A DNA stretch of 64,000 bases from Anaerolineae bacterium (GTDB lineage: Bacteria > Chloroflexota > Anaerolineae > Aggregatilineales > UBA2796), in the NCBI GenBank assembly GCA_019637555.1, contig JAHBVK010000003.1:158236-222235 (forward strand), written 5' to 3'. Below are positions 45,126-47,625 of the stretch, one piece after another. The notes below the pieces were generated by a model, which saw only the letters and a list, made by a program, of their open reading frames with translations, was not told the origin of the DNA and made no database searches. Each line of letters starts with the position of its first letter. Position 1 is the stretch's first letter. The position numbers and the translations under genes were made by a program.

Positions 45126-46100
45126 CTAGCTCAGGCACTTGTATAGCAGTTCTTTCCAGCGTTCATTATCCAGCGACCAGCACACGCTGATGTGAGGCTT
45201 GCCCTTCTGCACGACTGGCTGCCACATCTCTACATTTTCGGTTTCGTAGTTGGTTACATTGCAAGAATCCACGATGGTCATACCGCGTGTGAAGGTGCCA
45301 TCGCACTCGATCTCTACGTAGTGTTTACTGCTGCGGGTGCAGATCGTCGGATCGATTGCCACTGCCATCGCCGTAGGGTCGGGCAAGCCGAGTCCCGGAT
45401 CACCGAGCCATTCGCGGCTTGCTTTCAGCGCGGAAGCGTTGCAGTCGATAGCGAAGTTTGAGTACTTGGTGTTGATTACTTGCTTGCAGTGATGCATATC
45501 CTCATCGCTGAGATTCGCCTCGCCGCGACACAACTCCCAGCCAACCATCTCAATTGGCAGACCGCTGCGGAAACAGATACGCGCCGCTTCGGGATCGCAC
45601 CAGATGTTGTACTCAGCAGCGGGCGTCACGTTGCCGACGGTATTCGCCGCCCCACCCATGACCACGCAGCGTGAGACGTTGCCCACGATCTCCGGCGCTT
45701 TGCTCAATGCCAGCGCCACGTTGGTCAGCGGACCCAACGTGACAAGGATGATGCCCGGGTTCGCTTTGATCGTCTCGATCAGCGCGTCAACGGCGTGCCC
45801 TTGCCGAGGCTGCATCTTGGGCGCGGGATACTCCATGTTACCCATGCCGTCATTGCCGTGAAAGAAGTAGGCGCGGTAGACCTCGCGGGTCAGTGGTGCA
45901 TCCGCCCCGTGATAGACGGGTACGTCGGTCTTGCCGCACAGTTCCAGCGTGTAACGGGCATTGATGCTGCCTTGGGCAACAGGCATATTCCCCGCCACGA
46001 TGGTGACCGCCTTAATGTCGATGTCCGGTGTACGCGCTGCCATCAGGATGGCGACCGCATCATCGGAAGCGGTGTCAGTGTCAATGATCATACTACGCAT
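45126..46100 (-). CDS. Nucleoside hydrolase
   Basis: 324 residues of the inosine-uridine hydrolase family, which cleaves the N-glycosidic bond of ribonucleosides. The calcium-binding N-terminal motif DTDTASDD is present; VTLGPLTNVALAL and NIWCDPEAA are also family signatures. ATG 46100 is chosen; a longer frame to 46148 only reads through the left inverted repeat of the adjacent cassette. It is the last gene of the PfkB/YjbQ/nucleoside hydrolase operon, now separated from its upstream paralogue by the cassette. Base specificity cannot be told. Confidence 0.92.
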   Translation of the reverse strand: MRSMIIDTDTASDDAVAILMAARTPDIDIKAVTIVAGNMPVAQGSINARYTLELCGKTDVPVYHGADAPLTREVYRAYFFHGNDGMGNMEYPAPKMQPRQGHAVDALIETIKANPGIILVTLGPLTNVALALSKAPEIVGNVSRCVVMGGAANTVGNVTPAAEYNIWCDPEAARICFRSGLPIEMVGWELCRGEANLSDEDMHHCKQVINTKYSNFAIDCNASALKASREWLGDPGLGLPDPTAMAVAIDPTICTRSSKHYVEIECDGTFTRGMTIVDSCNVTNYETENVEMWQPVVQKGKPHISVCWSLDNERWKELLYKCLS

Positions 46101-46122
46101 AAGTAAATGGGTTCCTTTCTTA

Positions 46123-46188
46123 CCCCTCACCTCGACGCTTCGCGCCACCCCTCTCCTACGCTGCGTGAGTACACTGCGGGGAGAGGGG
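46123..46188 (+). repeat. Left inverted repeat of the DUF559 cassette
   Basis: 66 bp, starting CCCCTCACCTCGACGC and ending GGGGAGAGGGG. It contains a CGCTTCGCG hairpin and the CCTCTCC/GGAGAGG blocks of repeat family A. Confidence 0.85.
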
Positions 46189-46197
46189 AAGTGGATG

Positions 46198-46566
46198 TTA
46201 GGTCGTGAGGGAATCTCGAATTTTGGTCAACACAGAACCAAGACTTTTCTCTACTTCGTCGGCGGTCACGCGGATAAAGTGGATGCCAAGCGACTCGAGT
46301 ATCTCTTGTCGCTCTTGATCTAACTTTTCTTGGACTTCATCTATGTGATAGCCGCCGTCAACTTCCACAGCTAGTTTCGCATCGGCGCAATAAAAATTCA
46401 CTATATATGCGCCGATTGGTTGCTGATACCTAAATTTATAGCCATCCATTTTCCGCCCGCGTAGCGATTCCCATAATAAATCTTCGCTGCGCGTCGGTAT
46501 TTTCCTAATCCTCTGCGCGATCTCGTGCATCCGATGTGGCAACTCGCGCGAAATCTCAAATTCCAT
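46198..46566 (-). CDS. DUF559 protein, Vsr-like PD-(D/E)XK endonuclease fold
   Basis: 122 residues of full family length. The helix SEDLLWESLRGRK (27-39) and KFRYQQPIG (44-52) are DUF559 signatures. The predicted nuclease core is YIVNFYCADAKLAVEVDGGYH (54-74), with acidic E68 and D70 and H74, related to very-short-patch repair endonucleases. ATG 46566 has AGGGGA 6-7 nt upstream and lies just inside the right inverted repeat. An in-frame ATG at 46590 abuts the repeat, and the frame is even open through it. Function is unknown for the family. Its position as the sole gene between inverted repeats suggests that it acts on those repeats or moves with them. Confidence 0.85.
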   Translation of the reverse strand: MEFEISRELPHRMHEIAQRIRKIPTRSEDLLWESLRGRKMDGYKFRYQQPIGAYIVNFYCADAKLAVEVDGGYHIDEVQEKLDQERQEILESLGIHFIRVTADEVEKSLGSVLTKIRDSLTT

Positions 46567-46590
46567 CAGGTTTCCCCTGAAGGTGATCAT

Positions 46591-46656
46591 CCCCCCTCCC
46601 CACAGTGTACTCACGCAGCGTGGGAGAGGGGTGGCGCGAAGCGCCGGGGTGAGGGG
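46591..46656 (-). repeat. Right inverted repeat of the DUF559 cassette
   Basis: 66 bp, the reverse complement of 46123-46188 with five transitions. The open frame of the DUF559 gene continues through it upstream, but the ribosome site and ATG lie inside the cassette. Confidence 0.85.
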
Positions 46657-46671
46657 CAACCAGCGCCTAAC

Positions 46672-47625
46672 TTAGCTCCCGCGCATCCGGCTCAACTCTA
46701 GATCGACTACGCCTTGCCCGTTGACGCCAACGCAGACATTGATGCGCGGGCGGTTTTCCCATGGCGGCAGGATGTAGACATCAGGATGCAGTGTGGGCCA
46801 CGTCTTGCCGCGACTGATCCCGTCGTTGGTATCCACGCGGATGGGAAGCTGCTTGGTGGTGAACAGCGAGGGATCGATCAGATAGGCAATGGCAGAAGGA
46901 TCGTGAACGAAAATGCCGTTCAACTCCTCGTATCTGCCGTAGAACGCCTGATACAGCGGCACGATCTTGGCGATGTGCTGCGCCATGGGATTATCGAACT
47001 TGCTGTATTCACTCAGATGATCAGGCGTCATCACCGTTTGCTGTGTTACGTCCAGCCCGACCATCGTCAATTGCCAATCCGCGCCGAAAACCACATCGGC
47101 AGCTTCGGGATCGTTATGGATGTTCGCTTCGGCAGCGGGCGTAGCGTTACCGGGACCGAGCGCGTTGCCGCCCATGATCACCACTTCTTTGACCCGCTGC
47201 GCGATACGCGGTTCCAGCCGCAGCGCCAGCGCGATATTGGTGAGCGGTCCAATGGGCACGAGGGTCACTTCATCAGGTTGGCTCATCACCTGCTCAACAA
47301 TGAACTGTGCGGCGGTCTTATCCACTGGCTTGGTGGTCGGATCAGGCAGGAATACATTGCCCTGACCATCTTCGCCATGAACGTAAGGTACAGGACCGCC
47401 ATATGGCACCGCCAGCGGATTATCCGCGCCGTGAGCGACAGGAATATCGGGGCGTCCGGCGATCTCCATCAGTCGCAGCGCGTTGGTGGTCGCCAGTGAG
47501 GTATGCACGTTGCCGAAAATAGTGGTCAAGCCGATGAGTTCAAGTTCCGGTGAGCGCATGGCGAAATAGATCGCCATCGCGTCGTCTACGCCGGGATCAG
47601 TGTCGATGATAATTTTACGTGGCAT
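46672..47625 (-). CDS. Nucleoside hydrolase, paralogue
   Basis: 317 residues with the calcium motif DTDPGVDDA near the N-terminus, VPIGPLTNIALAL, and EANIHNDPEAAD in the family positions. It is only moderately similar to the copy at 45126, so the two probably differ in substrate. It is encoded 6 bp after yjbQ in the same operon. Together with the PfkB kinase it suggests nucleoside breakdown to base and ribose, followed by ribose phosphorylation. Confidence 0.93.
   Translation of the reverse strand: MPRKIIIDTDPGVDDAMAIYFAMRSPELELIGLTTIFGNVHTSLATTNALRLMEIAGRPDIPVAHGADNPLAVPYGGPVPYVHGEDGQGNVFLPDPTTKPVDKTAAQFIVEQVMSQPDEVTLVPIGPLTNIALALRLEPRIAQRVKEVVIMGGNALGPGNATPAAEANIHNDPEAADVVFGADWQLTMVGLDVTQQTVMTPDHLSEYSKFDNPMAQHIAKIVPLYQAFYGRYEELNGIFVHDPSAIAYLIDPSLFTTKQLPIRVDTNDGISRGKTWPTLHPDVYILPPWENRPRINVCVGVNGQGVVDLELSRMRGS

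Follow-up and report, generated by a model that had tools for sequence, protein, structure and literature searches.

Triplex repeats go by several names and are associated with genome instability, while DUF559 is, to our knowledge, a widespread family without a settled common role. In the intrastrand triplex, the third strand (the head in the repeats described here) has to match the purine stem (PMC4666352). A single strand of the E. coli motif reportedly forms such a triplex in solution (PMC4666352). The Discussion of that paper states that transposase or integrase remnants were not found near TM repeats, and ties no gene to them (PMC4666352). In addition, 100 CCCTCTCCC..GGGAGAGGG palindromes in Enterobacter sp. 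638 were interpreted as terminators (PMC2869309). For REPs, a job comparable to the one proposed here for DUF559 is done, by different chemistry, by RAYT (PMC2817692). In the part of the literature covered by our search (preprints and most subscription papers lay outside it), no work linking DUF559 or ycjD with triplex repeats was found.

The present study concerns a 64,000-nucleotide stretch of an Anaerolineae bacterium genome (contig JAHBVK010000003.1, positions 158,236 to 222,235; hereafter the window), in which a DUF559 gene lies between two inverted arms and two nucleoside hydrolase genes.

45126..46100, minus strand: NH1, nucleoside hydrolase (IU_nuc_hydro), downstream neighbour; start ATG 46100 by sequence reading
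46120..46189, plus strand: left arm, a TM/BoxC (intrastrand-triplex-type) repeat by sequence, head outward; 44 arm matches in its own genome
46123-46131, plus strand: left-arm head, CCCCTCACC
46148-46156, plus strand: left-arm pyrimidine stem, CCCCTCTCC, followed by the loop
46178-46188, plus strand: left-arm purine stem, GGGGAGAGGGG
46198..46566, minus strand: DUF559 gene, predicted Vsr/EDxHD-fold nuclease; start by sequence reading
46590..46659, minus strand: right arm, an inverted copy of the left arm, 61/66 identical, head outward
46672..47625, minus strand: NH2, nucleoside hydrolase (IU_nuc_hydro), upstream neighbour; adjoins NH1 without the insert in two relatives

The earlier note had described arms matching in 61 of 66 positions, and direct comparison of the left (46123-46188) with the right arm (46591-46656) gave the same figure, all five differences being transitions; the inverted repeat is longer than 66 bp, reaching 70 nt (46120-46189 / 46590-46659, 91%, spacing 400 nt). 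DUF559 (PF04480; profile E 1e-28, 99.8 bits against a cut-off of 20.6) was the sole gene detected between the arms, in line with the claim that this nuclease is the only product of the cassette. The sequence also bears out that about 37 bp would remain between the nucleoside hydrolases, as excising the unit leaves exactly this length (46101-46122 plus 46657-46671). The open reading frame listed for DUF559 begins at TTG 46659, within the right arm, and ends with the stop codon at 46198-46200; ATG 46566, with AGGGGA upstream, is the likelier start, and ATG 46590 is possible. More generally, annotation probably often places the beginning of a DUF559 gene within an arm.

In each arm, the head CCTCACC precedes the pyrimidine stem CCTCTCC, which a loop separates from the purine stem GGAGAGG; seven consecutive triads are possible in the window arm. 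Judged by its sequence, the arm is a G/C-rich class II intrastrand triplex motif (TM, PIT, BoxC) described by Holder et al. 2015 (PMC4666352), with loops (~22 and ~16 nt in the window arm) longer than the 1-6 nt of the TM search in that paper and thus outside its search definition; the loops of L002, another DUF559 unit of the same genome, are short. In single-stranded form, the arms folded better than shuffled sequences (z values: window arms, -2.6 and -2.5; L001, a further unit, -4.1; L002, -4.2). Moreover, in the repeats compared, head and stem covary as the triplex demands. Among distinct repeats near DUF559, the head CCTCAC was paired with the stem C-C-TCTCC 59 times and the head CCTCAT with the stem C-T-TCTCC 16 times, and the mixed pairs numbered two (T-head/C-stem) and zero (C-head/T-stem; Fisher 1e-14, a p-value that serves only as a guide since related repeats are non-independent). 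Elsewhere in these loci, at a distance from DUF559, matched pairs numbered 11 and three, with no mixed cases, and among the listed pattern matches holding T, with no hairpin demanded, there were 11 T-head/C-stem, nine T-head/T-stem, and two C-head/T-stem combinations. The stem class of the repeats also clusters on the DUF559 tree, this clustering, like the covariation, having been computed on related sequences. Both classes are present within some loci, suggesting that the C/T switch of head and stem probably occurred more than once.

In the genome that carries the window (6.5 Mb, 116 contigs), a search with the arm, as the earlier note had proposed, returned 44 matches, including the element's own two arms, and the strict head-plus-stem pattern CCCTCACCCCN{0,20}CCCTCTCC returned 88 matches against none for its reversed control. 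Based on these counts and on the family-wide flanking described below, a chance inverted repeat was rejected. Many of the strict-pattern matches are paired in inverted orientation, with a total length of ~90 bp, and the loop of the window arm, slightly changed in some cases, was found in eight single gene-less copies within the set of 30 arm loci retrieved (L006, L008-L013, and L016). PF04480 had four matches in this genome, namely L001, L002, L003 (the window unit), and L004. In the first three, a full-length DUF559 gene lies within inverted arms of a common plan and differing loops, and L004 is a DUF559 fragment with pyrimidine/purine hairpins alongside. The two arms of L002 do not diverge over a 36-nt core, those of L001 differ at 2/61 positions, and those of the window at 5/66. 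For Y1_Tnp, five matches were obtained, four of which (L144-L147) are enclosed by inverted repeats of a different class (e.g., CCGGAGCTGAAGCTCCGGGCTGAAA) and may, from their layout, be read as RAYTs; the words CTCACCCC, GGGGTGAG, CCCTCTCC, and GGAGAGGG were absent from all five loci. With RAYT-type genes located in another repeat class, two repeat classes thus appear to pair with two kinds of enzyme in one genome. At L001, the left end of the unit and the stop codon of the ABC gene upstream of it coincide (1355-1357), and the repeat end may thus provide the stop of that gene.

The association was then measured across the family, using 80 named DUF559 loci (the best of 553 relatives from the contig scan, which had yielded no matches with the single protein as query) and a full set of 166 domains from the named loci, the own genome, a phylum survey, plasmid records, and one genus; these loci are top-scoring matches rather than random draws, with no more than 30 loci per genome search. 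Sufficient flank was available for 163 of the 166 domains (77 of the 80 named loci), and a pyrimidine/purine hairpin was scored when its stem was at least 8 and it lay within 250 bp of the gene. Of the 163 DUF559 loci, which come from many phyla, 71 had hairpins on both sides and 124 on at least one; among 1757 placements shifted within these loci, the corresponding counts were 0 and 37. An inverted-repeat score of at least 30 was reached by 48/163 loci vs 13/1270 shifted placements, and a score of at least 40 by 24/163 vs 0/1270, both DUF559 tallies including L077, whose score of 101 is an N-run artefact. Among the named loci, 62/77 had a hairpin on at least one side, and by phylum the same was true of 18/28 in Bacteroidota, 12/12 in Chloroflexota, 11/11 in Pseudomonadota, and 6/8 in Cyanobacteriota, with others besides. 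The strict head-plus-stem repeat was present on each side of 37/166 domains (30 inverted, seven direct) and on neither side of 101/166; in the 30 inverted loci the heads pointed outward in 15 and inward in 15. Arms of this kind are thus frequent beside DUF559 genes, contrary to the possibility, raised in the earlier note, that DUF559 genes elsewhere are never so flanked.

Control families did not show such a pattern. In the same sampling of the window's phylum, DUF559 had hairpins on at least one side in 27/33 loci and on both in 15/33, compared with 0/25 for Uma2, which we take to be another PD-(D/E)XK family. For Y1 transposases, most of the loci fetched being high-scoring Y1 proteins and not necessarily RAYTs, the counts were 1/27 on at least one side and 0/27 on both, and no hairpin was found beside nucleoside hydrolases (0/12). 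In these controls, gene ends were assumed from the usual locus layout, and loci with short flanks were dropped (5/30 for Uma2, 7/34 for Y1, and 3/15 for the hydrolases).

The pairing is not universal, with no hairpin within 250 bp in 39/163 DUF559 loci and none by the same criterion in 14/46 of genus g3. A 43-row clade from one bacterial family, of which 39 were scored bare, is mostly without flanking on both sides; an upstream hairpin was visible in the ten members whose flanks were inspected by eye. Across 301 genomes of the phylum, DUF559 was present in 62/88 with at least 10 pattern matches vs 80/213 with fewer (p 3e-7, relatedness uncorrected), and no DUF559 match was obtained in 26 of those 88. 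The genomes G034 and G043 had 343 and 413 repeat-pattern matches, respectively, and no DUF559, and their sister genomes G078 and G110 had one DUF559 match each. A terminator or promoter role behind the pairing was rejected, as hairpins outside genus g3 lay upstream in 70/108 and downstream in 73/108. Outside the chromosome sets, 37 plasmid and two phage matches to DUF559 were obtained, and five plasmid/phage records were inspected together with the gonococcal one. In 14 control genomes, PF04480 matches were found only in Caulobacter and Corynebacterium; E. coli gave none there, and E. coli MG1655 nonetheless has ycjD annotated.

The two hydrolases stand side by side in two relatives of the same order (L152 and L153), where the aligned ends are 34 and 51 bp apart with no repeat in between; it is therefore not the case, as the earlier note had allowed, that the gene occupies this site in all relatives. 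The window operon was comparable in these two loci only, as the second hydrolase is not next in L150, L151, and L155 and L154 lies at a contig edge. Likewise, the ABC operon interrupted at L001 is uninterrupted in L293-L295, one of which is of the same genus, the comparison covering these three as the best of 13 relatives with loci. Furthermore, the 57 genomes of genus g3 had between 0 and 19 DUF559 matches each. Uninterrupted operons and patchy copy number favour movement of DUF559 units, and the evidence as a whole favours the minimal mobile cassette akin to RAYT/REP that had been suggested earlier, its mobility being a reading of these comparisons. No target duplication is visible beside the window arms, the relatives being too diverged for exact comparison, and no exact empty site at high flank identity was obtained among the relatives compared. 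In a whole-locus search with L199 in genus g3, the conserved flank stops at the element in four genomes; since other, variable DNA occupies the spot in those four, this is not a clean empty site. At this intergenic spot (L199 1936), G376 has a DUF559 unit and G382, G080, G348, and G269 have different DNA (L227-L230), two of these inserts looking like RAYT genes by eye. In each of the Nostoc-type pairs L086/L100 and L058/L069, the two members have both flank and element in common. Many partial DUF559 matches, some with stops, occur within a few kb at G345:C1:964385-978555 and G349:C5:633-8207, which looks like a site where DUF559 copies accumulate and decay. A classical IS with target duplication was rejected, no duplication having been seen and DUF559 being the only gene detected inside.

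The association extends to E. coli K-12, in which ycjD is an annotated DUF559 gene (1351407-1351760, minus strand) with a TM repeat (1351204-1351239) on one side only, 167 bp beyond its stop codon. By sequence and position, this repeat is entry 9 in Table 1 of PMC4666352, and simple arithmetic (23 sites in 4.64 Mb) gives a chance of ~0.003 for a TM repeat so near ycjD. The gene and its region are present in 3362/5426 E. coli genomes. For E. coli genomes without ycjD among the matches listed, the match is confined to the 123 bp on the fabI side or to the repeat, indicating that the break is not at the repeat. For a Neisseria gonorrhoeae DUF559 gene, the downstream hairpin is clearly of triplex type and the upstream one degenerate; 3hrl is from the same species. 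Downstream of the gonococcal gene (L232 1395-2090), hairpin repeats stand in tandem every 281 bp.

The predicted DUF559 fold matches those of the homing endonuclease I-Bth0305I and of Vsr. Alone among 163 aligned domains, the window protein has N at a column where the remaining 162, including L001 and L002, have D, and the complete near-invariant set of acidic residues of an active Vsr/EDxHD/PD-(D/E)XK nuclease is consequently not present in this copy. This D is presumably a metal ligand, as expected for the PD-(D/E)XK fold, so its replacement predicts an impaired enzyme, and the window DUF559 copy has probably decayed, with the decay of the arms and that of the gene agreeing with each other. 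N-terminal extensions resembling the translated repeat (HPQPLSQGGRGE, LTPNPSPN) were seen in P0003, P0004, and P0007, like that of the open reading frame listed for the window. A defence role was rejected, as the PADLOC matches were weak and limited to the window protein (mREase_II 1.5e-6, DpdF 1e-4), with none for L001 or L002. Beyond the earlier note, the arm thus proves to be, by sequence, a known repeat, its link with DUF559 holds family-wide, E. coli ycjD included, and the window copy looks catalytically decayed.

The explanation that we consider probable is that DUF559 and its two inverted triplex repeats form a REP-like mobile element, whose nuclease, by cleaving the folded ends, would copy either the unit or gene-less repeats to new sites. 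During replication, or when single strands are otherwise exposed, the repeat would adopt a hairpin or triplex fold, at the base of which the DUF559 nuclease would cut; if both ends were cut, the whole unit would be copied or moved, and if one repeat were cut, a gene-less copy would result. We infer binding and cleavage of the repeat by the nuclease, with the single-stranded hairpin or triplex as its substrate, movement of gene-less repeats in trans, and present inactivity of the window copy itself. The DUF559 product is thereby likely the missing enzyme that spreads the triplex repeat. Only tentatively, and with some doubt, would we go on to regard DUF559 as a new class of transposase, with a Vsr fold recognising folded triplex ends and with the triplex/PIT/BoxC repeats, like the REPs of RAYTs, as gene-less offspring in hundreds of genomes, including E. 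coli K-12. EDxHD homing endonucleases spread introns by a double-strand break and recombination, and DUF559 might similarly break DNA at or in gene-less triplex repeats, recombination then copying the gene in and the repeats spreading otherwise. Such spread seems unlikely, considering that the uninterrupted sites in L152, L153, and L293-L295 carry no repeat as a target and that arms with inward heads are as common as those with outward heads (15 and 15); it would also leave the multiplication of the repeats themselves unexplained.

DUF559 could instead be a cellular nuclease, structure-specific or acting on mismatches, beside which the repeat is regulatory or a substrate, with the packaging secondary and the repeats moved by other means. 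In Caulobacter, a DUF559 protein has a role in DNA damage that was interpreted as Vsr-like repair (PMC12907096), some sites are common to several species (e.g., L055, L074, and L090), and one-sided and bare DUF559 genes occur; however, interrupted operons, private gene-less copies, and 0-19 copies in one genus look mobile, and we regard a purely cellular role as quite unlikely. It is very improbable that RAYT (Y1) transposases move the triplex repeats with DUF559 as cargo. The REP/RAYT layout is identical (PMC2817692) and the own genome has five Y1_Tnp matches, but four of these genes lie within a different repeat class, triplex words are absent from their loci, and the Y1 loci of the phylum, largely of high-scoring Y1 proteins, had such hairpins on both sides in 0/27 and on one side in 1/27. 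Scarcely credible is a chance packaging by independent insertions of repeats either side of an unrelated gene: the repeats are indeed abundant (88 strict matches in the own genome), yet hairpins on both sides were seen in 0/1757 shifted placements, which contradicts it at the family level, and the loop common to both window arms occurs in few other copies in the genome.

Mobility driven by the DUF559 product, as preferred here, offers a candidate enzyme for the triplex repeat and a candidate substrate for the DUF559 family, and E. coli K-12, with ycjD and the 23 TM sites of PMC4666352, offers a test system. If true, the fold of mismatch repair and intron homing would also serve as a stand-alone driver of short mobile repeats, and the DUF559/triplex system would have evolved in parallel to RAYT with an unrelated enzyme.

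Among known systems, MITEs and IS with terminal inverted repeats resemble the present unit in their inverted ends and in having one or no gene inside, whereas the window unit has no known transposase and no visible target duplication, and its triplex-repeat ends are hairpins themselves, found in either orientation. Compared with the EDxHD homing endonuclease I-Bth0305I and with Vsr, the window gene is associated with no intron or intein, and the DUF559 protein has 120 residues, no added DNA-binding domains, and triplex-repeat flanks. The TM repeats (TMECO; earlier PIT, BoxC) share with the window arm the head-stem-loop-stem plan and the match between third strand and purine stem, and they are likewise dispersed, intergenic, and often in inverted pairs (PMC4666352). 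Unlike RAYT, which is a Y1 (HUH) transposase, the enzyme here is a DUF559 protein of predicted Vsr/EDxHD fold without Y1 character; the REP head is GTAG, whereas the head here is CCTCACC, the third strand of the putative triplex, and flanking by two repeats is not obligate for DUF559. In their architecture, the REP/REPIN and RAYT (TnpA-REP) systems are similar to the DUF559 unit, as in both the repeats are short palindromes that carry a head and are dispersed, a single enzyme gene lies within two inverted copies, each enzyme has a repeat of its own, and gene-less copies of the repeat are present in the genome (PMC2817692).
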